A stretch of 64,000 nucleotides of DNA, from assembly GCF_024323335.1 (NCBI RefSeq), contig NC_066581.1:30438699-30502698 (forward strand), in the 5' to 3' direction. Shown here piece after piece: positions 7,019 to 54,631 of this stretch; positions within the stretch are counted from its first letter, which is position 1, and each line of letters starts with the position of its first letter. Origin of the DNA: Lathyrus oleraceus (lineage: Eukaryota; Streptophyta; Magnoliopsida; Fabales; Fabaceae). The notes beneath the pieces are model-generated. The model did no database searches, was not told the DNA's origin, and worked only from the letters and a program-made list of their open reading frames with translations. Both the position numbers and the translations under genes were made by a program.

Positions 7019-7039
7019 AAAAAGAAAAGAATAGCTCGC

Positions 7040-7186
7040 TAAGTTGAGAACCCGAAAGGGCGGCTTATGCAAAAATGAGCGTCTCGGTGGATTGAAAACC
7101 CGAAAGGGCGATTCAGGCAAAAATTAGAGACATAAAACAGAAAGAATTTCCTGATAAGTTGAGTACCCCACCTTGGGGAAACTTAT
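7040..7186 (+). other. Post-pol hairpin module of element A
   Basis: Three consecutive hairpins: TAAG...CCC-GAAA-GGG...CTTA (7040-7067); GGAT...CCC-GAAA-GGG...ATTC (7089-7114); ATAAGTT...CCCCA-CCT-TGGGG...AACTTAT (7154-7186). Each is followed by (G)GCAAAAAT(G/T)AG. The same order occurs in E (minus strand, 45143-45303), and two of the hairpins in F (32157-32234), with different but still complementary outer arms. Probably a structured RNA element; function unknown. Confidence 0.75.
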
Positions 7187-8510
7187 GCAAAAATTAGGGA
7201 TTATGGCAAGTAATTGTATTTTGCTGATCTTCGGTGTTTTGAAGACTTGTTTGAGCACAAGGGTTGACATTAGTTCATCTCCAGTAGTGGTCAAGAGCAC
7301 AGTAGATATCAATATTTGGTTGAAGGATGAAGGATCATTTGTATTCAATGTAACCCTTTTCCATGTAAATTACCATTTTCAACTTTGTAAAGTCTATGGA
7401 GTCTTGTCATTTAAAGACTACCATTCCATTAAATAAAGTTGAGCTTTTACCCAATTGTTTCTACTCTTATTTACTTCAGTAAATAGTTTTAAATTTTATT
7501 ATGATCATTTTAAAATTGAATTTTTAATCAAAATCAAATTTTCTTTAATATATAAAAGCAAGAATTTTTTCCAAAGCAAGTAAAAGGAAGATCAACAACA
7601 TGTCAGTAAAACACAAGTCCATAAGTGCGAGTGTTTGACTCGGTTCCTCGGCGGAGTGTTTGACCCCCAGTGGAGCTTCTTTCTTTATCCATAGTTGAGT
7701 TGGTTGATTCAGATACCCTGCGACATGTTCTTGTCCCCAACAGAGTTTCGACCTTCCCCAGCGGAGTTCGTATTTCCTCAGCAGGTGGATCGTCATTAGA
7801 AGATGTTTGATCTTCCCTAGTAGATCGTTTTGGTGTCCCCACCAATTGCCATTTGATCTTTGCTCCCAGTCAGAGTTTCCTCCTGGTTTCTGAGCAACTT
7901 TTGTTGACTGTTTCTCTGTAGGGTTGTCTCCCATTTTTATGATGTTGACCTAAAATTCCCCACAGATTGGATGTTCCGTCCTCAGCAGATCTCCTCCGTC
8001 CGCAGCTAGGGTTGAGCCCTTGGGATGTTGATTTCTCTTTTCTCCAACAGTAGTCTCCATATTTTGAGGATTGACCGAGGATTGTACCGGTGGTTCAATT
8101 TCTTTGCAACACCTCTGTATCCTTCGTGATCGTTTTGTCAGCATAATCATCATATATACATATACATATACATTCATATAATTTCATAATTCGCATATCC
8201 TGCATCTTTATATTTGATTTATTTGAGATCCTTATTCTCTGTTATGGCGGTACTTTATCCCCATACCAAATCTGGTGTTTGTCCTTTTTCAATTGTAAAG
8301 TGTCAGCCCCTTACGTAGAAAGACGTTAACCTTTCTCTGTTTCCCCACTGAGTTTGTTCCTCGTGGATGATTGTTATTTCAGTTTCCTCTCCAGCAAATT
8401 TTCTAGATTGAATTACTCCCCTTGAGTTATATCCTCATTGGGTTGAGTCTTTATTGACCATTTTCTTTCTAGTTCTTACCTAGATAGATATTTTGGTCCC
8501 CTAAGAGTCT

Positions 8511-9572
8511 ATTACCCAGTAACTGGTAATATTCTTCTTAGTTTGCAGTTTGTTACTTCTTGCCCAATACCCGGCAAAAGTATCCTTTTTATCCTCAGTA
8601 GAATCCCTAATGGATTTATTCCCCGAAAGTATATCCTTGATATGTTTATCTTGACGGTGACGAATATATTTTCTTCCCCGCAGGAGTCTATCCTTGATAT
8701 GTTCACTTTAACCAGTGACGAATATTCTCTTCTTTGGTATTCTACCCAGTAAAAAGGTAGTTGTAATCCCTATTTTGTTCCTTAGAGAGTTAATCCTTGA
8801 TATGTTCATCTTAGCCGATGACGGGTTTTCTTCTCCTTGTTGGTTTTCTACCCAGTAACCAATAGCTGTAAATCCTACTTTTTCCTGTGCAGAGTCTATC
8901 CTTGATATGTTCACTTTAACCAGTGGCGGATATTCTCTTCTATGGTATTCTATCCAGTAACTGATAGATGTAATCCCTATTTTTGCTCCCTTTTTCAGAG
9001 TCTATCCTTGATATGTTCACTTTAACTAGTGACAGATTTTCTCTTTGATTGGTCTTCTACCCAGTAACAGGTAGTTGTAAATCCTACTTTGTCCCCTCGC
9101 AGAGTTAATCCTTGATATGTTCATCCTAACCGGTGACGTATTTTATCTCCGACGGTTTTCTATCCAGTTTTTGATAGATGTAATTCCTCCCTTTTGTTCA
9201 ATTGGTATATCCTTGATATGTTCATCATAACCAATGACAGGTATCCTCCTTGACATTTTCAGGCAAGTCTATCATTGACATGTTCATCTTAATCGATGAT
9301 GGATTTTCTTCCCTGTCGAGTTTATCCTTGATATGTTCATCCTAACCGATGACGGATACTCTCACCCCTGGTCTTCTGCCCAGTAACTGGTAGTTGTAAA
9401 TCCTATTTTTTTGCAGTTTTCCCCAGCAAGGTTATTCTTACCCAGTAACTGGTAATGAATACTCCCTCTTGGCGGTTCTCAGCGAGTCATCCTTGATGTG
9501 TTCATCTTAACCGATGACGGATGTTCTTTCTATCAGATGTTTATTATCTCCTTATCCAGTAACAGGTAGTGG
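8511..9572 (+). repeat. Tandem hairpin array in the 3'UTR of A
   Basis: Diverged units of roughly 105 bp, with shorter ones of about 55 bp, alternate two hairpins. Type 1 has stem YTAYC/GRTAR around CAGTAAC-N (8511, 8742, 8950, 9057, 9160, 9376, 9438). Type 2 lies in the phrase 'ccttgatatgttca' and has stem TCAYY/RRTGA around YTAACC; I count ten copies of the phrase between about 8632 and 9510. Changes in the two arms are mostly matched. Confidence 0.8.
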
Positions 9573-10064
9573 ATAATAGACTTATGCTCCTCCTGTGTTG
9601 AAATTTTATTTCTCCCCATTTGAGTTGAGTGCGTATTTCTTTAGTGAAATCGCTCCCCTGCATGAGTCGAGTATTTCAGTGTTATCCTGACTTATTCGTA
9701 TCCCCTGCAGATGTTTGTTTCCCAGGCTGAGTCTTTCCATTTGTATGGAATTCCTCGAGTCCCCCAGTAGTTTTAAGTCGTAGCCTGGACTATGCATAAG
9801 TCCACTTTTATCCCCATAGAGTCTTTGTCTCCCTAGTGAGTTTTCCTTATGGAATGCATTATGCTCCTACTAACTTTCGGTCTCTCTGATTTCTTTTCCT
9901 TTGTGGCAATATTTCCCCACAGAGCATTAACTTTTGCATTCATATCATATGCATCATGAGGTCTCTTAGGGACCAAAATTTGTTTCTATAGGTTGTTATT
10001 TAAGCCCATTCTACTGAGTCGGGCCAAATATTTTAACCTTCACCTCCTCAGTTAGAATGTCCTT

Positions 10065-10077
10065 AAATAGGGGAAGC
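10065..10077 (+). promoter_or_regulatory. Polypurine tract of element A
   Basis: AAATAGGGGAAGC lies immediately before the 3' LTR. The matching site in E reads AAATAAGGGCATC. In the family this is the primer site for plus-strand cDNA synthesis. Confidence 0.75.
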
Positions 10078-11593
10078 TGTAAGACCCCAATTTTGACCCT
10101 AAGATCCCTCATGCAATTTCATCATAAGCATAAGCATTGGGATCATACCTTGACATCCTCCTTACCCCTTTTCATTGGGTTTATTTTGGGAGAGATCACC
10201 AAGCACTTTGTGATTATATCATACTTATATTTTATCATTTTTACTAACCAAAATACCAAATATATGTCTTTGTATTTGTCTAACTCTTTTGTAGATAGGG
10301 CATGATCTCATTGATTCATCAAGTTCATATCTAGGGTTTGAGACCCTCATGAACAAAGAGCACAACCAAGAATTGATCCAAGAATGGTTATGAGCATAAT
10401 ATATGAGTCCCAATTATCTCTACATGTTATATTGATCAAGTCTTCTTCAAGAGTTTGAGGGTGATTTGCCTTAGAAACCCTAGTTTGACTGGGTATCTTG
10501 AATAATTTCTCCAATAAGCTATCTCACCAATTGATCAAATTTCTCAAGGGTAACTTCAAATATCATAATATTATGCATATATGATCTACCATGAGCCAAG
10601 AAGGTTAAGAGAATTGGAAATTAGAAAGTTGGTTGATGGTGGTTGGCTAGATGAATTCATCTGATCAAAACTGGGTCTCCCTAGACCCTATCTCCTACAG
10701 TTTTCACCATATGAAAATTCTTCCAAGAGAAAACTTACTATAAATGACATTACAAACAACTTTCATGTTTAGATCTAGAGTTAGTTTTGCTTGGAAAAGC
10801 ATTTTCTGTGTTGAAACATTATAGGTCATTTTGTCTAAACCCTAATTTGAAAGTCAACTTCCCAAGGCCATAACTTGCTCAATTTTTATGATATGAAATA
10901 TTTCCAAGTTTCACAATCAAATTCAATGTGTCTAATTCAACTTTTATGTTTGGAGTGGGAGCTAATTCAACTTTTTTGAGCATGTGATATGAGGTTACAT
11001 TATAGGTCACTTTTGACCTATACCATTGATCATGTGATTTTTCCAAACTTCAAAATTCATAACTCTATCATTTAATATCCAAATGACATGAAATTGGTGA
11101 CCATTTTTCAGGTATTTGAGATAGCTACAACTTTTATGAAGACACCTTTCTCATTTGAAGCTCCCCTAAAACGTTAAGTAAGGTGGAATATTGAGACATA
11201 TGGCTTGACACTTAGAAAATTTTTGACATGTCAAAATTTTACAAACTTCCACCTCAAATTTATCCAAGTTCCAAGATCCAAATGAAAAAGTGTTCAACAT
11301 CAAACTTGTTCCTATAGATCTCATCTTTCCAAAGAGCTAAAATTCATTCATTCTGGACTTGAAATGCATAGGCTGCGCATGGCTTAAACAGGCTGGTATC
11401 ATTTGGCATGGATCAATCTTCAAGCATCAATGTTCATTTGCATTTCAATCTAAGCTAACTTCAAAGCATCTGATCTTCAAATTTGGACCTTCAGCTATCA
11501 TTTCATGGGCCTATGCGCGCCCATGCACCATTGCAGCATCATTTGCCAATTTTGGAAAGTGAAAGTGAGTGTGCAATTATCAACCAATTCAGC

Positions 11594-11601
11594 TATAAAT
11601 A
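11594..11601 (+). promoter_or_regulatory. TATA box of the 3' LTR of A
   Basis: TATAAATA in 'cagctataaatagagcttc', about 1.5 kb into the LTR. LTR3 has almost the same context (15732) and D has it on the minus strand (28085). Confidence 0.7.
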
Positions 11602-12804
11602 GAGCTTCAACTGCTCAGAATTCAGAACCCAATTGCGCCAACTTTGATCCCCCATTGAAGACCCTTCATTTTCAAAGGATAAACCTGATAAATTCATTTG
11701 AATTTGAGCTTGAATCTCCACTGTTTTGGAATTCAATTCTCCAAGAATCCATTGCTTCTAAACCATTTAATCCTTCTCCTGCAAGCAAGTTAAGTGAGTC
11801 CAAGCACAAGCAAGATCAAGATCTATCAAGTTCAGACCTCCATCGAAGATAACTTTTAGAAATTTTAAACTCTTTGATTCTCTCAAGTTCTTGCTCAATT
11901 CTATTGATTCTTTGGTTGTCTGAAGTACTACCAATGTAGGCAAGAAGATTGAGTTGCTTTGAGGTCAAATCGAAGCAACTCAATTCATGTACCTCAAATT
12001 TCAAATCCACACATCTCTTAATATACTTTGAATTGGAATGAATGGAGGTCAGATTCGAGCTCAGTGCCATTTTTTCTTCAAGATCATGTCCTTGTTTTTC
12101 TTTTTGGTGATGGTTCATGTTGACCAGTCCGGTGAGGTTCACCGGGGAAGATGACCGGAGCTCTGGCTCCGACGATGAGGTGTCTTGCATCTGAACCACA
12201 TGATACTTCTCCCACGTTTTAATCTTGAGCGTTTGTTTTAATTACCATTTGTGCAGCGCAGTTGACTAATGTACATGTGGAACACGCGCTAGGGACCATC
12301 AGATCTACCACCTCAATTAATGAGGGAGATCTGATGATCCACGTATTTTAGAATTTCTGAAATTTTATTTTCTTCAATGATTCATATTAAATTCAATATT
12401 GATCCAAAAAATATGGGACTTTCACCAAAAAATATCAACTATTTTTCTCTTTCATATTCTGAATTAAAATTATTTTTTGAATCATTATTAATATTTTTCA
12501 TGATTTAATTGATTTTGCATTTGTTTTTAATTGTTTAAAAATATTTTTAAATGTCCAAAAATTATGAAATTTATTCTCCAAGGTCCTTTGACCTTGTTTG
12601 ACCTATGATAAATCTCATGGCCATTTCTATGGTGTTTTGATGAAATTTTAGGAATTGGACAAAACATATTTGATTAATTGCACTATTTTATTATTTTTTA
12701 ATTTAATAAATGCCATTTAAATTTTGTTGACCAATGGTATTGACTTGTTTGAGTTTGCTTGTTTGTTGTTGGGCCTTGGTCAAAGTTGATTTGACTTTGT
12801 CAAG

Positions 12805-12874
12805 TTAATATCATTGGATTTAGGGGATTGATGGAATGTACATTCCATCTCCCAAAATGAATGACTGATATTAA
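12805..12874 (+). repeat. 70-bp long hairpin in LTR A
   Basis: Outer arms TTAATATCA/TGATATTAA, inner GGG/CCC pairs and a perfect 20-bp palindrome GATGGAATGTACATTCCATC at the tip. It lies about 1.2 kb downstream of the TATA box, so it would be in the transcript. Homologues are at 20376-20451 (B), 26804-26875 (D) and twice in the leader of H. Confidence 0.85.
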
Positions 12875-14195
12875 TTTAATAAAAGTCCTCCTTTGACCAA
12901 TTTGTGATCTCATTCATCCCCTTCCCACTTCATCTCATTCCTCTTCTTCATTCATTCATTTCCATTTGGCCTATGATATCTTAAAGTCCTAATGCTAGTT
13001 GATGGGAAAATTGACATGAGTATGGATGAGATTAGGCCACACCTTTTGCATATTTTGTGTGTGTGGTATGTTTCATGAGCATAGTTCATAATACTATGTC
13101 TCTAACATGCATTAACACCAAAAGTCTATTGCTCAGCCTCAAATAGTTGTGACTTCTACATAAGTCCAATTACGATTGCTTAACATAGCGCTAAATTTGT
13201 GACATAAAAGGCATAAGCATTCTAGTTAGTGAGATTATAAGTCTCCCCTCTTTCATGGTATTGTGTGGAAACTTGGCCTTCTTTCCTTCCTTTAGAAGAT
13301 GTTTTGGTTCAAGGATCCAAGCTTGTGATAAGTGGATTGTGTGTTCTCCAAAGAATGTCTTGAAATGAAAAGCAAAACAAAACTAATTACTAACTTACTA
13401 ACTATTAACTTTTAATTTCAAGCTTTTACTTTAATGCAATTTACTTTTAGCACTCTATTTCATTTGCCATTGTTTATATCATTCTAATTATTTATGTTAA
13501 TGTAATTTTCACTTTGTCCATTTGGACCATATTGTGTGATATATTTTGTTTGTGTATACTTTGTTTGTTTGTGTGGTCTTTGACCATTAATGTACATAAT
13601 AACAACAAAAACCCTATAAAACTTTTTGTGTGGACTGTTGGCTTGATCTTTGGACCAAATGGACTTAGAATTTAGGCAACCTCCTTTGCTAATGGACTTG
13701 GCCAATGCCAAATTTGTTGAAGAACCAAGTGCTTGCAAATTTGAAATTCATCTAATACATCTTTGAAGACCCCTTCTAGTTCATCTGCAACATGATCATT
13801 GTGAAGTTGTTATTTTGAACCTGTGACTTGTGGAATTCATCTGCTACATGGGCTATTTTTAAGAAGGTCATGGAAGGGATAAGCTTGGACGTGGACATCT
13901 TTATTTGAAGCCTTGCTCTTCAAGATAATATAATTGTGCATTTTTGTGTTGCTTGATTCAAAAAGTCCAAGGGAATTCTGGGTTTCTATTGACATACTTG
14001 TCTATTGGATTGCTATCCATTTGGTCAGACCTTTTCAACTCTAAACTTTTAATTTTTTGTGCATAGGATAGTCTCTTCATCTTCTCCCCATTTCATTAAT
14101 TTCAAAATCTCTCCCTCCACTTTAAAAATCTTCTTTGTGCGAACTACTTTTGTTCTAAACTTTGATAACTTTTGCAAAAAGATAGAAACTCTGGC

Positions 14196-14200
14196 CTTAT
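14196..14200. repeat. Left target-site duplication of solo LTR3 (CTTAT)
   Basis: Exact match to CTTAT at 19084-19088. Confidence 0.93.
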
Positions 14201-19331: not shown

Positions 19332-20375
19332 CAAACACAAAAATATAATTAATGAATTCTTTTCTCATCCTCCCATTCTATTTGTTTGCAAACATCATTT
19401 TGTACAGAATGCATATGCACACAAAAAGGGATCCCTAGGAGTACCTAGGACACTTTGGGTGCTAACACCTTCCCTCTATGTAACCAACCGCCTTACCTGT
19501 GATCTCTGACTTTTATTAGTTTTTATTTGAAAACTTCTTACTTTTTGGGTTTTGTTCGTACTTTTTCCCTTTTCCCTTGGAAACAATGAATGCGCGGTGG
19601 CGACTCTTGTTAATTGATCTCTAGCTTTGTCAATAGCTTGATGATCATGAATTTCCCGCTACAGGATCTTCTATTTTTATGAATGTTTTGGCCAGATCAG
19701 TCTAGTGAGGTCCATCAGATAAGATAACCAGAGCTAGGGCTCCGGTGGTGTGCTGACATCATCCCAGACCATCTAATATAAGCCCTTGGTTTCAATTACC
19801 AATGTTGTTACAGGTTGACTTGGTTGCATCATGGACTACACAAGCGTGGCCATCAGATCTGTCACCTCAATTAATGAGGGAGATCTGATGGCCCTTGTTT
19901 TTCCCTTTTATTTTATTTTCTGATTTTTATTTTAAATAGCTTAATTTTTTTTAATTCATAATAATTACATTTTTAATCCAAAAAATATGGGACTTTCACC
20001 AGAAATCTTTAAACAATTTCATCTTCCATATTTTCAACTAAATTCATTTTTTGTATTATATTTGATATTTTTTGTGAACTAAATAGTTTTTGACTTGTTT
20101 TTAAATATTTTTAAGTACTTTTGACTTTATAAAAATTCCCAAATTCTTTGTCTAAGATCCTTTGACTTTGTTTGATCTAGGATAAATCCGTTGGCTATTT
20201 ATTTGGTGATTTGAAGGGTATTTGAGATTTTTCCCTTTTTAAAATGCATTTTATTTTATTTTTAAATTGATTTTTAGTTGTTTAAATGTTTAAAAATTAT
20301 GTTGAGCCATTTGGTTGACCTTGTGTTGTTTCATCTTCTGTTTGGCCTTGATCATGGTTGGTTTGAACTTCTATT

Positions 20376-20451
20376 TGATCAATATTATTGGATTTAGGGG
20401 GTTGATAAAGTGTACACTTCATCCCTCAACATGAATGGATAGTATTGATCA
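20376..20451 (+). repeat. Long hairpin in LTR B
   Basis: Arms TGATCAATA/TATTGATCA with a central palindrome AAGTGTACACTT. Homologous to the hairpin at 12805-12874, with several bases changed on both arms. Confidence 0.8.
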
Positions 20452-22321
20452 GATGAAATCCCTCCCATGATCAATTTGGGTTTCCATTTCCCTTTGCCTC
20501 TTCATCTGCATCCCTCTTCTTCCCCAATCCATCACTGACCAATGATTTCTCTACAAATCAAATGCTAGTTGATTCATCAATGACCTTATGTCAGATGAAT
20601 CAACATGAGCTTGATTGAGATAGGTCAACCCCATTTTATTTTTGTGTGTGGTATGCTTTAGGAGCTTGGTTCTTTGTACCATGTCTCTAGCATGCATTAA
20701 CACCAATATCTTTATTGCCCGACCTCACATAGTTGTGACTTCTACATAAGTCTAATTACGATTGATTAACACAAAGCTAAATCTGTCCCAAAAGGCATAA
20801 CATTCTTGTAAGTGAGATTGTAAGTCTCCTATTCCTCATGGTATTGTGTGAAGATTTAACCTTTTTTCCATTTGTGAGAGCTAGTCACATACTTGTTGAT
20901 TTATCCAAGTTGGAGCCCTTCTCATAGATGATGTCTTAGTTCATGTCTTTATGCTTGTGAGTGGATGGTTGAGTATTCTCGAAAGAATGACTTAAACAAT
21001 TGAATCCTTCACTAATATTTCACTAACATTACTTTGTTATTTCTTTATCTTTAACTTGATTTACTTAATGCAATTTAAATTTTAGTACCTTTATCATTCA
21101 TTGTCATTTACATTTCATGCAAGTTGTTTATGCTTCAGTCATCTTCACTTTGCTCACTTGAGCCATATTCTTGTGCTTGTATATAGTGTGTGCTTGTGAT
21201 TTTGTTCTGTTTGTGGTCTTAGGACCTTAAAATACCTAATAAAGACAAAAACCCTAAAAAATATGTTGGTGGAGTGTTGGACCTCTGCCTTTGACTTGAT
21301 CTGAGCTCTTGGACTTAGAATAGGAAACATCCTTTAGCTTTGAGGACTTGGACAATGCGATTATTTATGACTGAGTTATCTTGGCCAATGTCATTCATAT
21401 GAGACTAGCCTTGAGACCTCCTATTGGTTTATCTATTATTTTGTCCCTATTTTTAAGTTGTTATTTTAATCTTGTGGTTTATATGTGATGATTGTTTCTA
21501 TGAGTGTGCCACAAGGAATATTTCATCTGATACATTTTGAAGACACTGAAGAATGCTTGCTTTTGGAATACTTGCTTGGATGTTAGCAATCTTTATTTTA
21601 TGCCTCTGATCTTCATATTGATTGCTTGGGTGGTTATGCTTATTGCTTGCTTAAAAGTCCAAAGGAAATGGGTTTCTATCTGACATTCTTGTCTTATGGA
21701 TTGCATCCCATTGTCAGATCTTTTCAACTCTTAACTTTTAATTTTTTTCTAGGATAGTCCCTTCATCTCCTCCCACTTCTTTAATTTTAAAATATCTCCC
21801 TCATTTCAAAACTTTCTTTACTTGTGATTTCAAACTTAGACTTGTTTTAATGGTCAGAAACCTTGGCCTTATGCCATTGAATTTTCAAATAATTTCTTAA
21901 ATAAAATTTGTAAATAAACTTAATCATATTGATTTTAATTTTAAAAGACAAAAAGAACTAACAACCTCATTTAAGCCTTTTGGCCATTTTGTGCCTTTTT
22001 CTTTTAAACTTTTCAAAAAGAGAGCATTTAGGTTTGAGTTATCTTTGATTGAGATATAATTCCCATATTTCCATGGTATTTGATTATAAGTCTTTCCATT
22101 TATTAAAGGGTTAGTGGCATACTTGTTGATTGAATCCAAGTTGGAGCCCTCCATCTTAAATGTTGTCAAGCATTCATTATCTATGGATGTTTGGTTGAGT
22201 ATTCTCCCTTTGATAACAAAAGATCTTTAAGTTTTTGTTAAAATTAATCCACCCATTTCTTTGAAAGTTTTACCATGAACTACAAGGTTTTGATCCCTCA
22301 TTTTTATGCTGGTACGTAGGC

Positions 22322-26875: not shown

Positions 26876-28084
26876 CCAATAAAAGTCAAATCAACCTTGA
26901 CCAAGGCCAAAACATATAGTAAAACTTCACAAGTCAATAAAAATGGCTCAACATAATTTTTACACAATTAATCAATTAAAAATCAAATTAAAATGTATAC
27001 AAATTAAATTATGTTTGATCAAAAACCTAAAACCTCTTCAAAACACCAAATAATTGGCCAAGAGATTTATCATAGGTCAAACAAGGTCAAAGGACCTTAG
27101 ACAAAAAATTTCATAATTTTTGAAAAGTCATAAGTATTTTTACACAATTAAAAATATGCACAAAATAATTAAATCATGAAAAATATCAAAATTAATCCAA
27201 AAAATAATTTTAATTCAGAAAATGAAAGGAAAATATTTGAATTTTTTTGGTGAAAGTCCCATATTTTTTGGATTAAAAATGAAATTAATATGAATGAATT
27301 AAAATAAAAGGATTAAATGGAAAAATCAAAAAATCAAAAATATAAGGGCCATCTGATTTCCCTCATTAATTGAGGTAGAAGATCAGATGGCCAGGAGCGC
27401 GAATTGCACATGTACACGAGTCAAATGTGTTGCAGGCATGGTAATCACAATGGACGCGTGAGATTAGAACATGAGACTCAGATCAGATGGTCCTGGACAA
27501 GCCAACACACCACCGGAGCCCTAGCTCCGGTCATTTTCTCCGGTGAGCACCACCGGTCTGGTTCAAGCTCACCTCAACGGAAAATGAAAAGTGAATATAC
27601 TAATTTGAAGGAAAAATGCTCAGGAACACAAATGTGGCCTCAATTTTCTCCAATTCCAAGTATATAAAACGATACAGGGATTTGAATTTTGAGGATCATG
27701 AACTGAGTTGCTTCGATTTGACCTCAAATCAACTCAATCTTCTTGCCTACATTGATAAGACTTCAGACAACCAAAAATCAACAAGAATGGTGCAAAATTG
27801 AGGGGGAATTGAAGAGATGGAAATTATGAAAATTCACCTTCAATGGAGGTTCAGATTGGCACGATCTTTCTTTCAATTATGTTTGGCCTTGCTTCAGATG
27901 CTTGTTGGAAGTGATTAAGATCAAAGAAAGGCATGGACTCTTGGAGTTTCAATCTCAAAACAGATGGAGAATTAAAACTAGATTTTTAAAGAAAATCTTC
28001 AAGCTTATCCTTCAATGGTGAGGGTTTGGGATTACAGATTCAAAGCTTGGGCATGAGGTCCTTAACTCTAAGCAATGAGGATCT

Positions 28085-28240: not shown

Positions 28241-28555
28241 TGTCGCCACCTGAAAATTACAGTGCGCAAAAAAAACAACCGGCGAAAGAAAATGACAGAA
28301 GAGTCGCCACCGTGCGTTATTCATCCCAAAGGAGGGAAAGGAAACGCTCGAAGTAAACCTGAAAAAGGAAAGGACAAGACGGGGTCTCGCAACCAAATCT
28401 TGGGTTCGGGAGTCGGTTATGCGAAGGGAAGGTATTAGCACCCCTACGCATCCGTAGTACTCTACGGGATCCACTTTTGTAGTTTTCGTCTAAAGGGTGT
28501 GGGTTTATCTTGTGCTGTTTGCCACAAAAAAAAGGGTTAAATGAAAATGACTCGC

Positions 28556-28670
28556 GCGGATGTCGCATCCACTGCATACGTATCTCATCTGAATATGAGA
28601 ATCAGAGTCTTCGTAGCTCGGCTGACCTATGGGTTGGGGGGATGTATGCTCGCTAAGACATCGCGTCTTA
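28556..28670 (-). repeat. Two TACGTA hairpins in the 3' LTR of F
   Basis: On the minus strand: TAAGACG-CGA-TGTCTTA after TACGTAGGCA (28654-28670) and GTGGATG-CGA-CATCCGC after TACGTATGCA (28556-28572). Each has a 7-pair stem with one G-T pair, a CGA loop, and CGAG just after. The same pair is present in the 5' LTR. Confidence 0.75.
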
Positions 28671-29608
28671 TGCCTACGTATCTCAACTGGCCTGAGAATC
28701 AGAGCAAAACGTAGTTCGGCTAACTATGGGGTTATGGATTGGGTTTTGGACGAACGACGTCACTACGCAATCTACCGGATGCTCGACCTTTGGAGACTTA
28801 CTCGCCTGTAGTAGAAGGAGTTAACGTGTTGCTTTGGGTTTTAGGGTTTGGGATGCTCAAGGGCAAAAAGGCAGTCCTTGATGAAGGAACCGCGCTACCT
28901 GCAGGGATACGAACACATACAAAACAAACATGTATAAAGTAAATGTGCCAACAAGGGGCTCAGAAGTAAATAAACAAAAGAAAACAAATGCCTCCTATCG
29001 AGGTCTTCCAGCTAAGAAAGCGATAAAATGCGGAAAAGAGGTAAAAGTACCACACGGATGAAGATCCGAAGTAACAGCGATTAAAGGAGTAAGAAACCCA
29101 GGGACCTCCCAAGCTAATGCCATCAAAGAAAAGTGAGTCAGTATAGGTAATCGGGATGAACCTCCAGGGGTTATCCCACAAATAAAGTGGGAAACCACGC
29201 AAGTTATCCCTACAAAAGTCATGTGAGCCCTCACAAAAACTCAACAAAAGGGTTAGTGAAACACCATAAACATTTTTTTCATGGATAACAGTATGGTTTC
29301 ACAAAACCTCAAACCCTGTGGCATACACTTCAGAAATCATGTGATTAAACATTCAAGGCATAGGTTTCACCCATTCATAATACATCACACATTTAGAACA
29401 TTCAAATTGAAGGCGTAAAATAATGGGAATAGGGCAAACCTGATTGGAGAGCTTGATTGAAATTGAGTTGCACCCGTGAGGCCCTTCAGGGTTTGGAGAC
29501 TGCTCTGAGTTCTCTGTCAGGTTTCTCTTCAGGTTTTGTCCAGGGTTTTGTTCCAAGGAAACCTCAGAGTATTTTGCTTCTCTTCCTTTTTCCCAAGTGA
29601 AGTCTTGG

Positions 29609-29616
29609 TATTTATA
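29609..29616 (-). promoter_or_regulatory. TATA box, 3' LTR of F
   Basis: The minus strand reads TATAAATA in 'cagtctataaataccaag', about 230 bp into the LTR. Confidence 0.65.
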
Positions 29617-29667
29617 GACTGAATTTCATGGTTTTGTGGGCTCAAATGAGAGAGACCCAAGTCCAAA

Positions 29668-29756
29668 TTTTTTTATTATATTTTATTTATTTTATTTATT
29701 TATTTTTTTTGTAAATTTTTGTTTTGTTTTGTTTTTTTTTTTGTTTTTTTTTTCGG
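29668..29756. repeat. Simple A/T-rich repeat in the 3' LTR of F
   Basis: Runs of T with interspersed A and G. The matching place in the 5' LTR (39855-39950) has a different sequence, including a (TTA)n run, so this is the fastest-changing part of the LTR. Confidence 0.8.
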
Positions 29757-29841
29757 ATCTAATTCTGATTGACATGATGAAATGCAATATGAAATGCTAA
29801 ATGAATGCATGAATGAGGAGGGCAAATTTTGGGGTGTTACA

Positions 29842-29853
29842 GCTGCCCCTATT
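29842..29853 (-). promoter_or_regulatory. Polypurine tract of element F
   Basis: The minus strand reads AATAGGGGCAGC directly before the 3' LTR, like the tract of A. Confidence 0.7.
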
Positions 29854-30003
29854 CAATCATCAGCTAAACCGAGTAGAATGAAAGCGAACAGCTTATCAGA
29901 CAAACGGGGTGAGCTGTGATTGAATACCAAACACAGACCAAAAATTTGCGCTCCGAGAACACCACAAAAACGCGGAAATACACCGTGCTGTTTATTTTTC
30001 TTC

Positions 30004-30963
30004 CGATCCTCTGGCTTAATCTGGAGTTTCGATCCTCTGGCTGAACCTATACTCAATTTAGTCCTCTGGTTGGATATTAATTTTGATCCTCGGGCTGGAT
30101 ACGATTTTGATCTTCTGGCTAGATCTTCTTCGATCTTCTGGCTAGATCTCCTCCGTTTTGATTCTCTGGCTGAATCTATTTCCTTTGATTCTCTGGCTGA
30201 ATCTACTTCGATCTTCTGGCTAGATCTGAATTGTTGCGATTTTCGATCTTCTGGCTAGATCTTCTTTGTTTCGATTCTCTGGCTGAATCTACTTCGATCT
30301 TCTGGCTAGATCTGGATTGTTTTGATGATAAATTCCCGTCATTAGGATCCCGCATCTGAGGCATGCGCTGGTTGACCCTCTTTTGAAATCTACACCCAAC
30401 CTTCATATTAGATATGCAGCTTCGAGAATATTCCACTTTTGGGCTTCGTACATATTCTTCGGGCTAGAACATGTTGTAACGACTCCTCAATTAGACTTGG
30501 GCTTGCTGGGGAAATAAAGCTTGTAGGCGACTTCACTGGGGAATCTTCAAATTGAGCCTTAGGCTGGCTTACTGGAACACGATTCTCAGGCTGAATCTTC
30601 GAAATGACCCTCAGGCTGGATCACTGGAACACGATTCTCAGGCTGAATCTTTGAAATGACCCTCAGGCTGGATCACTGGAACACGATTCTCAGGCTGAAT
30701 CTTCGAAATGGACCCTCAGGCTGGATCACTGGAAAACGATTCTCAGGCTGAATCTTCAAAATGACCCTCAGGCTGGATCACTGGAAAACGATTCTCAGGC
30801 TGAATCTTCAAAATGACCCTCAGGCTGGATCACTGGAAAACGATTCTCAGGCTGAATCTTCAAAATGACCCTCAGGCTGGATCACTGGAAAACGATTCTC
30901 AGGCTGAATCTTCAAAACGACCCTCAGGCTGGATCACTCACGCTTCATCCTCTGGCTGGATCT
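30004..30963 (-). repeat. Array of about 28 seven-base-loop hairpins in the 3'UTR of F
   Basis: On the minus (sense) strand the unit is a 5-bp stem around the loop AGCC(A/T)GA, with one- or two-base loop variants. Observed stems are GATCT/AGATC, GATTC/GAATC, GATCC/GGGTC and GGTTC/GGATC, plus weaker ones; nearly all changes keep pairing, and G-T pairs are allowed on the sense strand. Spacing is irregular at 30004-30340 and regular at 30554-30941. See Findings. Confidence 0.85.
30554..30941 (-). repeat. 52-bp tandem repeat (about 7 copies) in the 3'UTR of F
   Basis: Near-identical 52-bp units, each holding two hairpins: GATTC-AGCCTGA-GAATC and GATCC-AGCCTGA-GGGTC. The four right-hand copies share 'ggaaaacg' where the left ones have 'ggaacacg', suggesting recent stepwise duplication. 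Confidence 0.9.
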
Positions 30964-32156
30964 CATGACCTTGGTTGTAAAGTAATTCTTCAGTCTACTT
31001 GGAAGAACCTGTTTATCAGCTTATGTGTATGCTTGATATGATATGCATGCAAATGAAAATGTTATGCATGGTGTAAAAAGAAATCTGCTTGGGGAAGCAA
31101 ACTCCGGTAGGGAACAGATCGCTGTATCAATCCTTGAATGCTCTGTGGGGAATGATCCGTCTGCCGGGACCAATGAGCCACCAAAAATAAATTGGCTGCT
31201 TGAAAAGTTGACCTTGCGGGGGGAGTATCAACTATGGAAACTTTTCTCGGCGAGGCTCTGTGAGGAGAGTCTGTGGGGAAAACACTTCCTGGGGAAATGT
31301 CGTAGGAAACGACCTTTGTTGGGGATATGAACTTGCTAATCGTCCTCAAGCTGGGGATTAGAACAAATCTGTTAGAAATAATCTGCTGGGGATGAGATGA
31401 ACATTGGGAACACCACCCTCTTGTCCGTTGGGTATGCAACCACTCCGCTGTTGCTAGGAAGATACAGTCTGACACTGTCAACTCCACTAGGGATATATAG
31501 TCTGGATACTGTCAACTCTACTGGGGATAGACAGTCTGGATACTGTCAACTCTGTTGGGGAACATGCTCTGCTGAGGAGAGACTTTGTCAACCGCTTGGG
31601 GATGAGGATTCATGACTTGGCATCCGGTTCCTGTGACCTGCAACCAAAAATACACGTATGCCTCGGGGGAATTACTCGGTTTGAATTCACCGTCCGGGAT
31701 TAAGCACATTCAAAGCAATTTTAAATGTTTTCCTGTGCAAATCATCTGCAAAAGCCACCATTATGTTCATATGCAATATGTTTTATCAAAAATTCGGACA
31801 TTTTTGCAAACAAACTGATAAATGAAAAATAAAGAGGCTCTTTAACTGAATTATTCGACTCTTACTGGGGAGAAAATTTGTGCCAGGAATAGGCGAGGGT
31901 ATCAGGAAGCTGATCCCTGAAAAGAGGTGATCGCTATAAAAAGAGAACTATCCTAATGGCAATGGGGATACGGGGTCCCACCGAGTTTCGACTCTGCTAT
32001 GGCTCGTATGTCCTCAAGACGCTCTGCTCATCTTGCTTTCTGAAGTGGATGATTAGTCGATCTTTAACCTTCGAAGATTGTCGGATTGAATGAAACGGTG
32101 ATATAACACTGATGAACTCAGATCACAGTCATTCGCTTATTCCCTAACTTTTGCCT

Positions 32157-32234
32157 GGATCGCCCCCTTTTCGGGTTTTCAATCCATAGGGATACCCATT
32201 TTTGCCTGAGCCGCCCTTTTGGGTTTTCGACTCA
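32157..32234 (-). other. Post-pol hairpin module of element F
   Basis: On the minus strand: TGAG...CCC-AAAA-GGG...CTCA (32207-32234), then GGAT...CCC-GAAAA-GGG...ATCC (32157-32185), each followed by GGCAAAAA. Two more arms lie closer to pol (CTGGAC/GTCCAG near 32324-32346). Homologous to 7040-7114 in A, with matched arm changes. Confidence 0.7.
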
Positions 32235-32357
32235 CCGGGTGTACTCTTTTTTTATATCCCTAATTTTTGCCCGAACCTCTTTATTCTCTTTTTTTTTGTT
32301 CGTCGGGATGCCCTTTTTTTGCCTGGACTATTCTTTTTATCGTCCAGCGGGTCTATT

Positions 32358-35790: not shown

Positions 35791-37388
35791 ATCAGAACCA
35801 AATTCAAAGTTTCCCCACTATCAACAGCATTAATCCTCTTCCCGCCGTGAGCCGACATCGGGTTCTGGATAACATTAGGGACCGGAGCGAAATTGATAGT
35901 CTGGGCATCTCTCAAATCTTGTACCTTTAACTGGAGAGCCTTGCAATTATCTGTAGTATGGCCAGGTGCGTTGGAGTGAAAAGCACATCTGGCGTTGACA
36001 TCATAACCTCTAGGCAAATTATTGGGATCGATTGGTGGGGCCAGAGTTCTCAATGTAACCAGATTCATGTCAATCAGCTTGGGAAGTAATACTGAATAAG
36101 GCATTGGGATTGGTTCGATGACCCGGTCCGTCTGCCTTGGACGTTGTTGATAGTGTCTCTGCTGACCCAGATTACCTCCTTGTTGTTGATTTTTGTACCT
36201 GGGTTGTTGTTGCGGATGATATTGCGGTTGAGGAACAGGTGTTGGAATAGTGACTGCGGCCACTTGATCTTGATAATAATTAGGGCGTCCTCTACCCCTG
36301 CCTCTGCCGGCATACACAACGCTTGCCTCGCCTTCTTTTCTTCGCTAACCGTTACCAGCAAACGGTCTCTTGGGACCTGATGAGTTAGAAGCACTATTGT
36401 CTTGAATTCGGCCCATCTTCAACAGACTCTCGATTCTTTCTCCAGCAATTACTATCTCTGCAAAGTTGATTGACGGGCAAGCAGCCAATCTCTCAATATA
36501 ATTGCCTTGAAGAGTGTTCATGAACATGTCCGCCATCTCCCTTTCGGACATAGGGGGTTGGACGGACGCAGCAATCTGTCTCCAATGTTGAGCATACTCT
36601 CTAAAGGTTTCCTTGGCAGTCTGAGACATACCTTGCAACAAGGTCCGATTTGGAGCCATGTCCAAGTTGTATTGATATTGCTTGATAAAAGCCTCTGCCA
36701 AGTCTTTCCAGCTCTTGATGGTAGTACGAGACAAATGAGAATACCATTCACGAGAAGCTCCAGTTAGACTGTCTTCAAAATAGTACATCCACAGCTTTTC
36801 ATCTTCCGTGTGAGCTCCCAACCTTCCCAAATAAGATTGGAGATGAGTGCGTGGGCAAGAAGCCCCTTTGTATTTCTCAAAAGTAGGGGGTTTGAACTTG
36901 TGAGGAATCCTTACTCCCTGAACCAGACCAAGATTTGTGACATCAAAGCCTAAGGAATTTTGAGACTCCAAAGATTTGAGCTTCTCAGCAAGCTCATCCA
37001 TACGGCGAGTGGTCTCGAGGGCCTCGTCGTGCAAAGAAAATTGATCACACTGATAATCTTCAGTAACGGGGCGCCCATTAATCTAAATTCCTTGATTCAC
37101 ATTGTACCTTCCGCCAATACCATTCCCAACATTCCCTGTGTTGCCAACATTACCCGGGTTTCCATCAGCATTTGCGTTACCCGCGTTACCAGTGTTCATA
37201 GGGTTATCAGCGTTCCCAGGGTTACTAGGGTTTCCCTCAGCATTTGGTATCTCCACCTCCGGATCAGGCCTCGGTTGCCCAACCAATTCCCTCAGCTTTT
37301 CTTGACCTGCTGCCATACCAGTCATCAATGTCATGAACTGATCCATCCTTTCACGCATATCAGCCAACTCTTTCTGTACTTGGTCCAT
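35787..37388 (-). pseudogene. Element F gag
   Basis: A single frame of 534 codons from ATG at 37388, broken by TAG at 37083-37085 and TAG at 36345-36347. Layout: coiled-coil-like N-terminus (MDQVQKELADMRERMDQ), an Asn/Gly/Pro-rich repeat, the retrotransposon gag domain (PPTFEKYKGASCPRTHLQSY ... EWYSHLS ... FIKQYQYN), an Arg/Gly-rich and Gln-rich basic region, and a variant zinc-knuckle CAFHSNAPGHTTDNC. It then shifts frame (about 35815) into the PRO linker. Gag forms the particle that packages the RNA. Confidence 0.9.
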
Positions 37389-38425: not shown

Positions 38426-39795
38426 GCTGTCGCAACCTGAAAAATACAGTGCGCGAAAAAAACAACCGGCGAAAGAAAAAGACAGAAGAGTCGCCACCGT
38501 GCGTTATTCATCCCAAAGGAGGGAAAGGAAACGCTCGAAGTAAACCTGAAAAAGGAAAGGACAAGACGGGGTCTCGCAACCAAATCTTGGGTTCGGGAGT
38601 CGGTTATGCGAAGGAAAGGTATTAACACCCCTACGCATCCGTAGTACTCTACGGGATCCACTTTTGTAGTTTTCGTCTAAAGGGTGTGGGTTTATCTTGT
38701 GTTGTTTGCCACAAAAAAAAAGGGTTAAATGAAAATGACTCGCGCGGATGTCGCATCCACTGCATACGTATCTCATCTGAATATGAGAATCAGAGTCTTC
38801 GTAGCTCGGCTGACCTATGGGTTGGGGGGATGTGTGCTCGCTAAGACATCGCGTCTTATGCCTACGTATCTCATCTGGCCTGAGAATCAGAGCAAAACGT
38901 AGTTCGGCTAACTATGGGGTTATGGATTGGGTTTTGGACGAACGACGTCACTACGCAATCTACCGGATGCTCGACCTTTGGAGACTTACTCGCCTGTAGT
39001 AGAAGGAGTTAACGTGTTGCTTTGGATTTTAGGGTTTGGGATGCTCAAGGGCAAAAAGGCAGTCCTTGAAGAAGGAATTGCGCTACCTGCAGGGATACGA
39101 ACACATACAAAACAAACATGTATAAAGTAAATGTGCCAACAAGGGGCTCAGAAGTAAATAAACAAAAGAAAACAAATGCCTCCTATCGAGGTCTTCCAGC
39201 TACGAAAGCGATAAAATGCGGAAAAGAGGTAAAAGTACCACACGGATGAAGATCCGAAGTAACAACGATTAAAGGAGTAAGAAACCCAGGGACCTCCCAA
39301 GCTAATGCCATCAAAGAAAAGTGAGTCAGTACAGGTAATCGGAATGAACCTCCAGGGGTTATCCCACAAATAAAGTGGGAAACCACGCAAGTTATCCCTG
39401 CAAAAGTCATGTGAGCCCTCACAAAAACTCAACAAAAGGGTTAGTGAAACACCATAAGCATTTTTTTCATGGATAACAGTATGGTTTCAGAAACCTCAAA
39501 CCCTGTGGCATACACTTCAGAAATCATGTGATTAAACATTCAAGGCATAGGTTTCACCCATTCATAATACATCACACATTTAGAACATTCAAATTGAAGG
39601 TGTAAAATAATGGGAATAGGGCAAACCTGATTGGAGAGCTTGATTGAAATTGAGTTGCACCCGTGAGGCCCTTCAGGGTTTGGAGGCTGCTCTGAGTTCT
39701 CTGTCAGGTTTCTCTTCAGGTTTTGTCCAGGGTTTTGTTCCAAGGAAACCTCAGAGTATTTTGCTTCTCTTCCTTTTTCCCAAGTGAAGCCTTGG

Positions 39796-39803
39796 TATTT
39801 ATA
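39796..39803 (-). promoter_or_regulatory. TATA box, 5' LTR of F
   Basis: The minus strand reads TATAAATA, identical to 29609-29616. It would drive the element transcript. Confidence 0.65.
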
Positions 39804-39918
39804 GACTGAATTTTATGGTTTTGTGGGCTCAAATGAGAGAGACCCAAGTCCAAAATTTTTTATTATATTTTATTTATTTTTTTATTATTATTTTTATTTA
39901 TTTATTTATTTGTAAAAA

Positions 39919-39944
39919 ATTATTATTATTATTATTATTATTTT
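39919..39944. repeat. (TTA)n microsatellite in the 5' LTR of F
   Basis: About eight ATT/TTA repeats. The 3' LTR has poly-T with G at the same place. Confidence 0.85.
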
Positions 39945-40039
39945 TTTTTTTCGGATCTAATTCTGATTGACATGATGAAATGCAATATGAAATGCTAAAT
40001 GAATGCATGAATGAGGAGGGCAAATTTTGGGGTGTTACA

Positions 40040-40044
40040 GTAAG
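40040..40044. repeat. Right target-site duplication of element F (GTAAG)
   Basis: Exact match to 28236-28240. Confidence 0.95.
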
Positions 40045-42552: not shown

Positions 42553-42565
42553 GATGCCCTTATTT
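42553..42565 (-). promoter_or_regulatory. Polypurine tract of Ogre E
   Basis: The minus strand reads AAATAAGGGCATC next to the 3' LTR; compare A (10065-10077). Confidence 0.65.
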
Positions 42566-43039
42566 AAGGTCATTCTAGCCAGAGAAGTGAAGGTTAAAAT
42601 CTTCGTCTCGACGGGGTAGAATGGGCTTAAATAATAACAAAGAGATGGATTTTGGTCCCTAATTGACCTCATGATGCAAATGTAGGTATGAAAAATGGTA
42701 GCACTCTGTGGAGATATGTGTCCACAAAAGCAAAGAAATCAGAAGCCACTGATAATCCATATGAACAATTCACTCCATGGGACCTAGACCCTGGGGACTC
42801 TCCTGGGGATAGAAAAGGGATAAAAATGCGCGAGCAGGTCACGACTCAAAGCGTGGGGAACAGAATTCCAAAGGGAAAAGATCCAATGGAAAGACTCAAG
42901 CTGACTCGAAGATGAATGTATTGGGGAATATGCCAATACAGCAAAAAACTATCCACAGTGGATACTTCGGATAAAATCCGGATGAAAACAATCCACTAAG
43001 GGACTTCGCTGGGGATGTCCATAAGGACACTCCTGGGGA

Positions 43040-43560
43040 AGCAGCGGGACGAGGTATTACCGGTTACTGGGTAATAAGCTCAAAGAGACATGTGATCTGA
43101 ACGCCAGGTATGAGGGTGAAAGATACAACATGCTCAGGAAGAGATGAATATCCAAGACCGGCATAAGGGTGAGATATATCAAAACTTCAAAATGTCTGAG
43201 GAAAACCTAAAAGGTATACTTCAACTCAGGGATTCTGACTCCACAGGGGACAAAAAGTCATAATAGGGAGCAGAGAGGAAGGAACACCAGGGATACCGGT
43301 TACTGGGCATATAATAGGTGACCAACCAAGGCGTGAATTGGGGAATATTCCCAAAACACTCATCATCCAAAAGAGGGCTAAAAGCAAACTCAATTACAGG
43401 ATGGATATTCGACTCCACAGAGGGGATACGAATCTTACTCAACTATGGAAGAACAAAAGGCTTCAGACCCGAGAGTGCATGAGATATACTATCTATTACC
43501 GTCAGAACATAGATAATATACTCGCATGGACGATTATCCACAACCGGTTACTGGGTTAAT
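43040..43560 (-). repeat. CAGTAAC-loop hairpins in the 3'UTR of E
   Basis: On the minus strand: TATTACC-CAGTAACC-GGTAATA (about 43055-43076), ATGCC-CAGTAACC-GGTAT (about 43292-43309) and AACC-CAGTAACC-GGTT (about 43542-43557). Loops agree with those of A; stems differ in matched ways. Confidence 0.75.
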
Positions 43561-45142
43561 AAAGGATAAATCGACCGAAAAGAAAAGGCATCGGGATACT
43601 GAAACTAGGTATATAATGATGACCAATTCAGGAGAGAAACAATCGTCACCAACAACAACAAGGTAGACGAGAGATGACCCGCTGGGGATAAATTGCGTAA
43701 TCAAGGCAATTATCCAAGCAGATGAGGGGATATCATCACCGAATATTGGATGAAGATAACTGTCACCAATTAAAGATGAGCAAAAATAGTTACTCTACAA
43801 AAAGGGAAGAAATAGGGTTTACAACTACCGGTATGAGGGTAGAGAAACACAGACTCCGTCGGGGATAATAATTACTAATTATTGAGAAATTATTCATTTA
43901 CCACGGGGAAACATGAAAAGAGTCTCAAGAGACCGATCTAGGATCAAACTAGATAGGCACACCAAATCAAGACTTGTCCCGGTGAGGATATAACTCAATG
44001 GGGAAAACCATCCCAGTATATGTGTTGGGAAGGAACAAAAACAATCAACATCCACGAGGATATAACCCGGTGGGGAATATGGAAGAAAGGATAGACGCTT
44101 TCTGCTTATGAAGCTGACTCTATATGGAGAGATCAGACACACACATCTGCTCGGGGAAGTATATCACCAAATAGCAGGAGACATCAAACAACGATATATG
44201 GCAAAGAATGCAACATGAATATCTGAATGTTATAATTATGCATGAATATGCGTGGTTTATGTATGATGTATGCTGACAGACAGACATATCTAACACAACC
44301 AGGTCCAGGAATCAACCACCCGATACTACATCTCAAGAGAGAAAGCCAATTTCACCGGGGAGTATCCAATCTGCTGGGGATCAGAGATACCAGGAAGCAA
44401 AGAACTCTGCAAGGGATGAATCATCAATTATTCCAGCTGGGGACGAGAGTTATCACAGACAAGGTCCACCACACCAACAACTCTACTGGGGAATCTATCC
44501 GAGGAGATAAAGTATTTATCGGGATCAACCACCAAATACCGCTCTTGCCCAAAGAGATCCAAGTTGCTGAGGAAGAAAGATTGCTACTCTGTTGAAGGGA
44601 AGAGAGGTGACTCTCAATAAGCAATCCACTTGGTAGGATAAACCACAAGGAGTTCCGGAGGGAGGAGATACAGTCATGCCAGGAATATGGACAAAAATCT
44701 TACCCTGTTGGGGATCGTACCACCCTTGGGAGAGAACTCAGGATCTCCTAAGTATCCTTTCGTCATTGTGAATGTTCACTTTGTTTAAAAACAAATTATA
44801 AGAATTTGATCGTTTAAAACAATGATATTTTCTTAATCAAAACATGCAAAACATTTGTTGAATAGAAACAGATAAGAGTGCCAATAATTGGATAAAAGGC
44901 TCAAATTTATTTGATAGAATGGTAGTCTGCGAATGGCAAGACTCCATAGATCTTTACAAATTTGAAATTGTTGATATATATTGGAAAAGGGATACATTGA
45001 ACATAATGACCATTTCTCCACCAATTCTGAATCCGATGTATTTGAAGCTTTGGCTGATAATGAGCAAGGATCTCTGACGGACGACAGTTGTAGAACAAAG
45101 TCTTGTCAGGATGCAGTTACTTGCCAAATCCCTAATTTTTTC

Positions 45143-45303
45143 CTAGACTGCCCCAGGATGAGGTACTCAATCTAGCGGGATACATATATTCATCATTATA
45201 TTTTTTTTGTGTCTCTAACTTTTGGCTGGATCGCTCTTTCGGGTTTTCAATCCACCGAGACGCTCATTTTTGCCTAAGCCACCCTTTCGGGTTTTCAACT
45301 TAG
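45143..45303 (-). other. Post-pol hairpin module of Ogre E
   Basis: On the minus strand: CTAAG...CCC-GAAA-GGG...CTTAG (45274-45303); GGAT...CCC-GAAA-GAG...ATCC (45228-45253); CTAGATT...TGGGG...AGTCTAG (45143-45175). Same order as in A, arms differently spelled but paired. Confidence 0.75.
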
Positions 45304-45335
45304 CGAGCTATTCAGTTTTTATTTTTTTAGGAAAA

Positions 45336-45726
45336 TTATTTCTTGACTGCATCTGAATTCACAGGACGAGTGAAATCCTCCCCATCCATAGTTGTAAGTA
45401 TCAAAGCGCCGCCTGAAAAGTCTCTTTTAACAACATACGGACCCTCATAATTTGGAGTCCACTTGCCCCTGGAATCGGGCGCGAAAGACAAGACTTTCTT
45501 GAGCACGAGGTCACCTTCTCGGAACACACGAGGCTTGACCTTCTTATCAAAAGATTTCTTCATTCTCTGCTGATATAACTCACCATGGCACATAGCCGTC
45601 AATCTCTTCTCTTCAATCGAATTCAGCTGGTCATAACGACTCTGAACCCATTCAGCATCAGTCAACTTGGCTTCCTTCAAGACTCTCATTGATGGGATCT
45701 CCACCTCTACAGGGAGTACAACCTCC
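45336..45726 (-). pseudogene. Ogre E integrase C-terminal remnant
   Basis: From LPVEVEIP through the RMKKSFDKKVKPRVFREGDLV and GKWTPNYEGPYVVK segments to DAVKK, then TAA in place of the usual Tyr codon, three residues early. At about 45721-45726 it is fused to RT sequence just after the catalytic YVDD motif, with a short shared GAGGTT at the joint. The RT thumb, RNase H, aRNH and integrase core are deleted. Confidence 0.9.
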
Positions 45727-54550: not shown

Positions 54551-54631
54551 GTCTGAAAATTTTGCAAATAAACCTCTTAAGTTCCTTGAAAATTTTCTTA
54601 TTATTTTGATGATATGAATGCAAATGGGTGC
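54551..54631 (-). other. Ogre E leader, last 81 bp
   Basis: 'caaggaacttaagaggttta...gcaaaattttcagac' before ORF1 matches 60570-60607 of H. The rest of the leader and the 5' LTR were pushed out of the window by H. Confidence 0.8.

Follow-up and report, generated by a model that had tools for sequence, protein, structure and literature searches.

The 3′ untranslated region (3′UTR) of F, a probable Tat/Ogre-like Ty3-gypsy retrotransposon in the window (the whole 64,000-nucleotide stretch of Lathyrus oleraceus DNA analysed here), together with the tails of related Tat/Ogre-like elements that carry other loops, appears to encode arrays of short RNA hairpins in which a 5-bp stem is free to drift while it pairs and a loop of 6–8 nt stays mostly fixed. 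The hairpin arrays are real, general and, to our knowledge, undescribed; their function is offered here as a hypothesis. At the level of sequence we demonstrate pairing and covariation in three hairpin families, the fixity of the family I loop, the close spacing of the hairpins and the reshuffling of units between copies. As to structure, our case is strong in family I and good in families II and III. As to what the arrays do, we regard it as an even call that our explanation is right as a whole, namely that the loops are read by a protein, with the element's own Gag as the favoured reader.

Results

Element F and its tail

F consists of two LTRs around gag, with tandem repeats between pol and the 3′ LTR, as in Tat/Ogre-like Ty3-gypsy elements (Table 1). 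Its pol is broken and shortened by stops and a deletion, and a polypurine tract read by eye (AGGGGCAG) adjoins the 3′ LTR. In a single comparison, protein of F matched a further element of the window, which we take to be an Ogre, around its gag-pol junction (29% identity over 141 aa, E 5e-13). The motif CX2HX5HX4C lies in the gag region, and a six-frame scan of the window gave no other match to it; it departs from the usual form of the zinc knuckle, CX2CX4HX4C. Elsewhere in the window, a 513-aa frame with DUF7745 (PF24924, E 8e-132; 53099–54640, minus strand) is presumably ORF1 of an Ogre-like element.

The tail of F also contains a 34-bp repeat (31454–31552, minus strand), the first unit of which holds GACAGT-ATCCAG-ACTGTC, while the following units pair less well. 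A second candidate stem, ACAGCT/AGCTGT between the array and the LTR, proved unsupported in the 12 copies in which it was tested, both arms having changed in one copy and one arm in several.

Table 1. Features of element F and of two other tails in the window (window coordinates).
Feature	Position	Strand	Remarks
5′ LTR of F	38428–40040	−	LTR comparison
3′ LTR of F	28241–29842	−	96.8% identical to 5′ LTR
gag domain of F	36345–37079	−	PF03732, E 6.3e-14
Atypical zinc-knuckle-like motif CX2HX5HX4C, gag region of F	35943–35987	−	motif scan
Approximate 3′UTR of F, broken pol end to LTR	29843–32340	−	about 2.5 kb
Family I hairpin array of F	30005–30962	−	29 loops AGCC[A/T/C]GA or near variants
52-bp tandem repeat	30541–30938	−	7.6 copies; two hairpins per unit (GATCC/GGGTC, GATTC/GAATC)
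Irregular part of array	30005–30312	−	GATCT/AGATC, GATTC/GAATC, GGTTC/GGATC and others; neighbours mostly 23–35 nt apart
Isolated 9-bp hairpin ACATGTTCT-AGCCCGA-AGAATATGT	30450–30474	−	one G-U; family I loop type
Hairpin AAGCC-AGCCTAA-GGCTC	30554–30570	−	4/5 pairs; in array
Tail U2	7017–10077	+	families II and III
Hairpins of U2	8510–9569	+	family II loop CAGTAACN or variant; family III loop YTAACC and variants
Tail U3	42553–45340	−	family II
Three family II hairpins of U3	43055–43558	−	TAACC/GGTTG, ATGCC/GGTAT, TATTACC/GGTAATA

The family I array in the window

An earlier, sequence-only reading of this DNA had described about 28 hairpins with a constant loop in the 3′UTR of F. The LTR pair bears out the location, and 28 hairpins with at least three stem pairs are indeed found (30957 to 30042), along with a 29th loop, at 30016, in which the closing pair is broken. 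All of these AGCCNGA-type loops (30016–30957) lie on the minus strand, usually as a loop of 7 nt on a stem of 5 bp, and all five stem pairs form in 24 of the 29 hairpins, at least four in 28. The motif AGCC[AT]GA occurs on the minus strand 25 times in kilobase 30 and at most once, on either strand, in any other kilobase. Fourteen of the loops fall inside the 52-bp tandem repeat that the same reading had reported, and the remainder are irregularly spaced. Every stem it listed is present in the array, but two of its details do not hold: AGCC/GGCT, placed 'near pol', actually lies within the array at 30565, and changes are not limited to stem positions 3–5. There is, besides, a longer hairpin, ACATGTTCT-AGCCCGA-AGAATATGT, at 30465.

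A different hairpin, CGCAT-GCCTCAG-ATGCG, occupies 30352–30367 (minus strand). The GCCTCAG loop has a paired stem in 17 of its 18 occurrences in the F set; the stem is identical every time, and there is therefore no covariation.

For a covariation test confined to the window, 21 of the 29 hairpins were aligned, giving 11 distinct rows. In this alignment 89.1% of cells were paired; shuffling gave 79.3%, with a single shuffle of the 500 as high. The covariation score was 0.505 against 0.286 (0 of 500 as high), while shifting the partner by one column left pairing at 54.5% or 38.6%. The count of further pair types was not unusual, 77 of 500 shuffles being as high. The test is modest because distinct stems are few; copies from across the genome turn it into a strong one. 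A scan of the whole window for covarying hairpins was noisy (295 pairs on the plus strand versus 161–201 in five shuffles); it was led by kilobases 30 (59) and 8 (19), with kilobases 14 (14) and 49 (12) near kilobase 9 (13).

Pairing and covariation across genome copies

The family I copies compared all come from the window's own 3.8-Gb genome, in which the pattern GATYCAGCCWGAGRRTC, allowing one mismatch, has 57,148 matches, whereas the pattern reversed has 26. The LTR-adjoining tag, which lies beyond the array, has 3,162 exact matches versus none for its control, and this figure is a lower bound on the number of F copies. Eleven copies were found with the hairpin pattern, their pairing being partly ascertained, and 20 more by the tag, without use of the hairpins. 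In the 12-copy set (the 11 and F; 248 loops) pairs 1–5 are formed in 97, 98, 100, 99 and 91% of cases, and position 6 pairs in just 11–12%. Over all 32 copies, the five pairs are complete in 561 of 645 hairpins, representing 59 distinct stems; the 645 are AGCC[ACT]GA loops that have another loop no further than about 140 nt away. When arms were swapped among all distinct stems, none of 10,000 permutations paired as well as the hairpins' own arms, and this was so in families I, II and III alike.

Shared descent was allowed for with a home-made tree-based null (a FastTree tree and 100 simulations of independent columns). Among 561 column pairs, pairs 1 and 2 of family I come first and second, and both exceed the 95% point of the maxima obtained in the simulations. 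Pair 4 comes fifth and pair 3 53rd; at neither did any of the 100 simulations reach the observed score. At pair 5, where 23 of 100 did so, covariation is not significant. Ranks 3 and 4 go to non-stem column pairs, and 19-28 and 5-29 score high. Thus the covariation expected of a conserved RNA structure is found under this home-made phylogeny-aware null, although some stem pairs fail. The compensatory changes that the sequence-only reading had seen in paired stems are upheld, and the lack of covariation over many copies that it had named as evidence against itself is, in our form of the test, not what family I displays.

The stems step through G-U, as in GATCC/GGATC, GATCC/GGGTC and GACCC/GGGTC or in TCATC/GATGA, TCATC/GGTGA and TCACC/GGTGA. 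Among the 645 hairpins, pair 2 is C-G in 355, T-A in 223, T-G in 59 and C-A in 2; pair 3 is T-A in 554, T-G in 86 and G-C in 3, with no C-A listed.

A fixed loop on shifting units

Loop conservation was assessed in 531 family I hairpins selected from their stems alone, the loop being ignored. Conservation in the seven columns of the loop is.99,.95,.99,.95,.62,.98 and.98, whereas 17 of the 20 flanking linker columns lie at.34–.60 (the other three at.62,.75 and.82). Column conservation thus indicates a loop in which only the fifth of the seven bases varies freely and the other six are fixed, in agreement with the constant loop first described. A shared loop motif on changing stems is also what packaging-signal-like sites display.

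In a scan for loops that occur with many different stems, AGCCTGA came first in the F set (170/190). Loops of 6–9 nt yielded 4 groups in which double changes affect at least two pairs in the F set and 4 in the family II set (up to 357 and 201 sites, respectively). The control scan with other loop lengths was not empty, giving 0, 0, 0 and 1 groups in the F set and 1, 2, 2 and 1 in the family II set, all with at most 34 sites.

Where neighbouring loops are less than 60 nt apart, 438 of 550 distances are 23–29 nt. The 12 copies carry 15–28 loops each, which differ in order and number, and the arrays are visibly reshuffled; the LTR-proximal flanks, in the 11 of 12 copies with the required motif, are 84–99% identical. 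Turnover of stems accompanies turnover of units, and the spread by duplication that had been suggested is supported.

Two further hairpin families in other tails

The sequence-only reading recognized one hairpin family; that family stands, but the view was too narrow, as two more occur in other tails of the window. Families II (loop CAGTAACN) and III (loop YTAACC) are new in this analysis. In U2, family III and family II hairpins are often about 40 nt apart. A 106-bp repeat runs through the same region (8684–9570, plus strand), its unit often carrying a single hairpin of each of these two families. Three other regions tried as tails, U4–U6 (28210–25450, 11477–14200 and 19847–22200), are without family II loops and look by eye like other parts of elements.

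In the window's own genome the family II sequence YTACCCAGTAACNGGTAR has 41,380 exact matches versus 1 for the control; in the first 100 places listed, the ends are Watson-Crick in 89, T-G in 8 and C-A in 3. The family II set comprises 62 sequences, namely U2, U3 and 60 loci that remained after 10 of 70 were dropped for overlap; the loci were found with the hairpin pattern and their pairing is partly ascertained. Over these 62 sequences, CAGTAACN hairpins are fully paired in 178 of 242 cases and family III hairpins, located by an upstream anchor, in 193 of 236. The multi-copy family counts used an anchor outside the stem. A first family III count in the window had taken in unrelated rows (9546 and 9688), and its p value of 0.17 was set aside. 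In the tails of this set the many-stem loop scan placed CAGTAACC (112/153, 13 stems) and CTAACC (103/156) first.

Under the tree-based null, pair 4 of family II ranks first and pair 2 third of 595 column pairs, rank 2 being a non-stem pair (4-29) above the simulated 95% maximum. Pairs 4, 2 and 1 of family III occupy ranks 1–3 of 528. No covariation was found at pair 3 of family II or at pairs 3 and 5 of family III. Just before the LTR, loci of the family II set also hold a hairpin that scores on the antisense strand only, with loop GTTAAAAT and stems TGAAG/CTTCG and others (35/54).

Sense RNA or DNA

G-U pairing is possible on one strand only, and an excess of G-U over A-C on the sense strand therefore points to sense RNA. 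The 397 family I hairpins of the 20 tag-found copies contain 121 G-U and 13 A-C, which confirms the sense-strand bias in wobble pairs claimed previously, and 347 of them are fully paired in sense RNA versus 263 in antisense RNA. For the 645 hairpins the corresponding figures are 561 and 411, so that equal support for the antisense strand, named beforehand as a sign against RNA structure, was not found in family I. Counted by stem types, G-U : A-C is 36:7 in family I, 28:26 in family II and 14:11 in family III; pooling gives 78:44 (p 0.003), an excess due to family I. Stem types present in at least three copies gave 17:8, which is not significant (p 0.11), and wobble did not differ between shared and private stem types (p 0.49). 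At pair 4 of family I in the 20 tag-found copies, A-C (8) is about as common as G-U (7). Decay of CpG where the loop meets the stem may account for some of the C-A in family II. These comparisons strongly suggest that family I adopts its paired form in sense RNA; they argue firmly for a sense-RNA structure in that family and tentatively in families II and III.

It could be argued that the inverted repeats act as DNA, either binding a DNA-binding protein or extruding as cruciforms. Consistent with such a dyad, most family I stems pair on the antisense strand too (411/645), the hairpin with loop GTTAAAAT is antisense-only (35/54), and parts of PMC11963269 describe antisense proteins of Retand tails that are predicted to bind DNA. 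A dimeric DNA-binding protein, however, would not tolerate the variation seen in the arms, and double-stranded DNA would carry no strand bias. We regard a DNA-level role as highly improbable.

A second possibility is that the arrays have no function: templated repair or strand switching, in reverse transcription or replication, would perfect palindromes by altering both arms together, and the arrays would be the known hypervariable repeats. The reshuffling between copies fits this mechanism, and tandem repeats in such tails are ascribed, in sections of PMC7004042, to strand-transfer errors in element replication. Repair of this kind predicts, however, that G-U pairs are lost, and 27 of the 32 copies have GATCC/GGGTC, just as 26 of 36 have TCATC/GGTGA; it predicts no strand bias, and family I shows 121:13; and it leaves the conservation of loops above linkers unexplained. 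Overall we consider it distinctly unlikely, while for families II and III it retains some plausibility because the strand bias is weak.

Folding stability and database searches

Twelve short hairpins gave −1.8 to −4.5 kcal/mol and are thus weak singly. Folding z-scores of 80-nt windows fail to single out the array, where they are slightly negative (−0.58 on the sense and −0.24 on the antisense strand) and none of 22 windows falls below −2; in U3 they display no sense preference. Global folding was rejected as evidence. Among the lowest z-scores in the window are those of three stretches related to one another (19841–19920, 12281–12360 and 27321–27400; −9.0, −7.2 and −6.0), in which CCTCAATTAATGAGG is flanked by the inverted repeat CCATCAGATCT...AGATCTGATGG or one like it.

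The 4227 Rfam models gave no match at the gathering score in the whole window and none at E up to 1 in 29841–32340. The hairpin pattern matched 10 stretches of viral contigs, once each, and at least 118 stretches of genome contigs, where the matches listed are single and lie in prokaryotic records; both were taken as chance. A reverse-transcriptase search of viral contigs found no relative.

Discussion

A 2009 study by Macas et al. is said to have named the hypervariable 3′UTR tandem-repeat region of Tat/Ogre retrotransposons. In the relevant parts of PMC7004042, PMC11963269 and PMC3305785, Tat/Ogre-type tails are described as hypervariable and repeat-rich, with function or origin unknown; soybean Gmr9/GmOgre has minisatellites in its 3′UTR (PMC3305785, in part), and 3′UTR repeats seed satellite DNA (PMC7004042, in part). 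The arrays reported here share with these repeats their place between pol and the 3′ LTR, their tandem units and their turnover between copies. The two papers, however, describe repeats in these passages and not RNA hairpins: 'hairpin', 'stem-loop' and 'palindrom' are absent from the main texts of PMC3305785 and PMC7004042, as are 'secondary' from that of the former and 'secondary structure' from that of the latter. Similarly, the POL-3′LTR region of Retand is long, carries tandem arrays and is of unknown function according to sections of PMC11963269, the main text of which differs from our account in being without 'hairpin', 'secondary structure' and 'stem'. A text search found none of six hairpin sequences in 5.39 million open-access papers. 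Searches of the open-access literature, judged by titles and abstract openings, turned up no hairpin arrays in plant retroelements, in line with the initial impression that they had not been described.

Among known systems, dispersed packaging signals whose loops have a motif in common come nearest in the way they work, and the likeness is at most a functional one. MS2 and satellite tobacco necrosis virus provide examples of such signals. In hepatitis B virus, dispersed stem-loops with the motif -RGAG- act as packaging signals, of which PS1 has −3.7 kcal/mol (PMC8677749, in part). F-type arrays likewise combine many stem-loops of low stability with a fixed loop motif and a presumed reading by the coat protein. 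In contrast with those signals, which are spread through coding sequence, the F-type array consists of 15–28 adjacent untranslated sites.

We propose that a protein would read the loop, the stem serving as a mere platform, and that many weak adjacent sites would confer avidity for the right RNA and tolerance of single losses. That the hairpins are selected at the RNA level is very likely; that the loop is read by a protein is probable; that this protein is Gag we place just short of an even bet. Support for an RNA-level structure whose loop is read is good in family I and lesser in families II and III, where the excess of G-U over A-C is weak. The loops are family-specific, which suggests a reader coded by the element; Gag would be the natural candidate, and the gag region of F has the knuckle-like CX2HX5HX4C. 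Less surely, Gag of F would use the array to mark genomic RNA for the particle, the array being a natural counterpart of the laboratory MS2 stem-loop array. Because a full pol is impossible in the window copy of F, this copy would need proteins from other copies, and a strong RNA address would help an element so dependent on foreign proteins.

Alternatively, the array may recruit a host RNA-binding protein for the export or stability of a long, partly unspliced RNA, much as do retroviral elements that follow the last gene and precede the 3′ LTR. Its position is that of known retroviral export elements, among which the CTE lies near the 3′ end. Known export elements are nevertheless single folded domains, not 15–28 small hairpins, and the loops differ among families I, II and III, whereas one host factor would favour a common loop. 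The export elements RTE and MTE, covered in parts of PMC12786077, are likewise cis RNA structures in LTR elements, but of a single complex fold as opposed to small-hairpin arrays with one loop. The same parts of this 2025 review of plant LTR elements, in which 'hairpin' and 'stem-loop' are absent, present plant export as without direct study and Ogre elements as having introns, which leaves room for a transport role. On balance we judge that role unlikely. Other RNA roles, such as control of translation versus packaging, dimerisation or shielding from small-RNA silencing, are compatible with the structure and its place and have no specific support; 5-bp stems are too short for Dicer, and AGCCNGA loops have, by eye, no useful self-complementarity. 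We consider such roles quite improbable.

The reading of the loops by Gag can tentatively be extended, in a form that we hold possible but lean against, to the group as a whole. Tat/Ogre RNA would be tagged by 15–28 hairpins carrying a family-specific loop 'password' (AGCCNGA; CAGTAACN with YTAACC) that is read by the element's own Gag, and the hypervariable repeats would be replicating packaging addresses. If this is true, repeat hypervariability would reflect selection on site number and loop and not junk slippage. Should the units prove to be RNA hairpins under selection, some of the satellite DNA of large legume-type genomes would have begun as RNA-binding sites, and the choice of particle RNA in plant retrotransposons would become testable with a defined 17-nt RNA.
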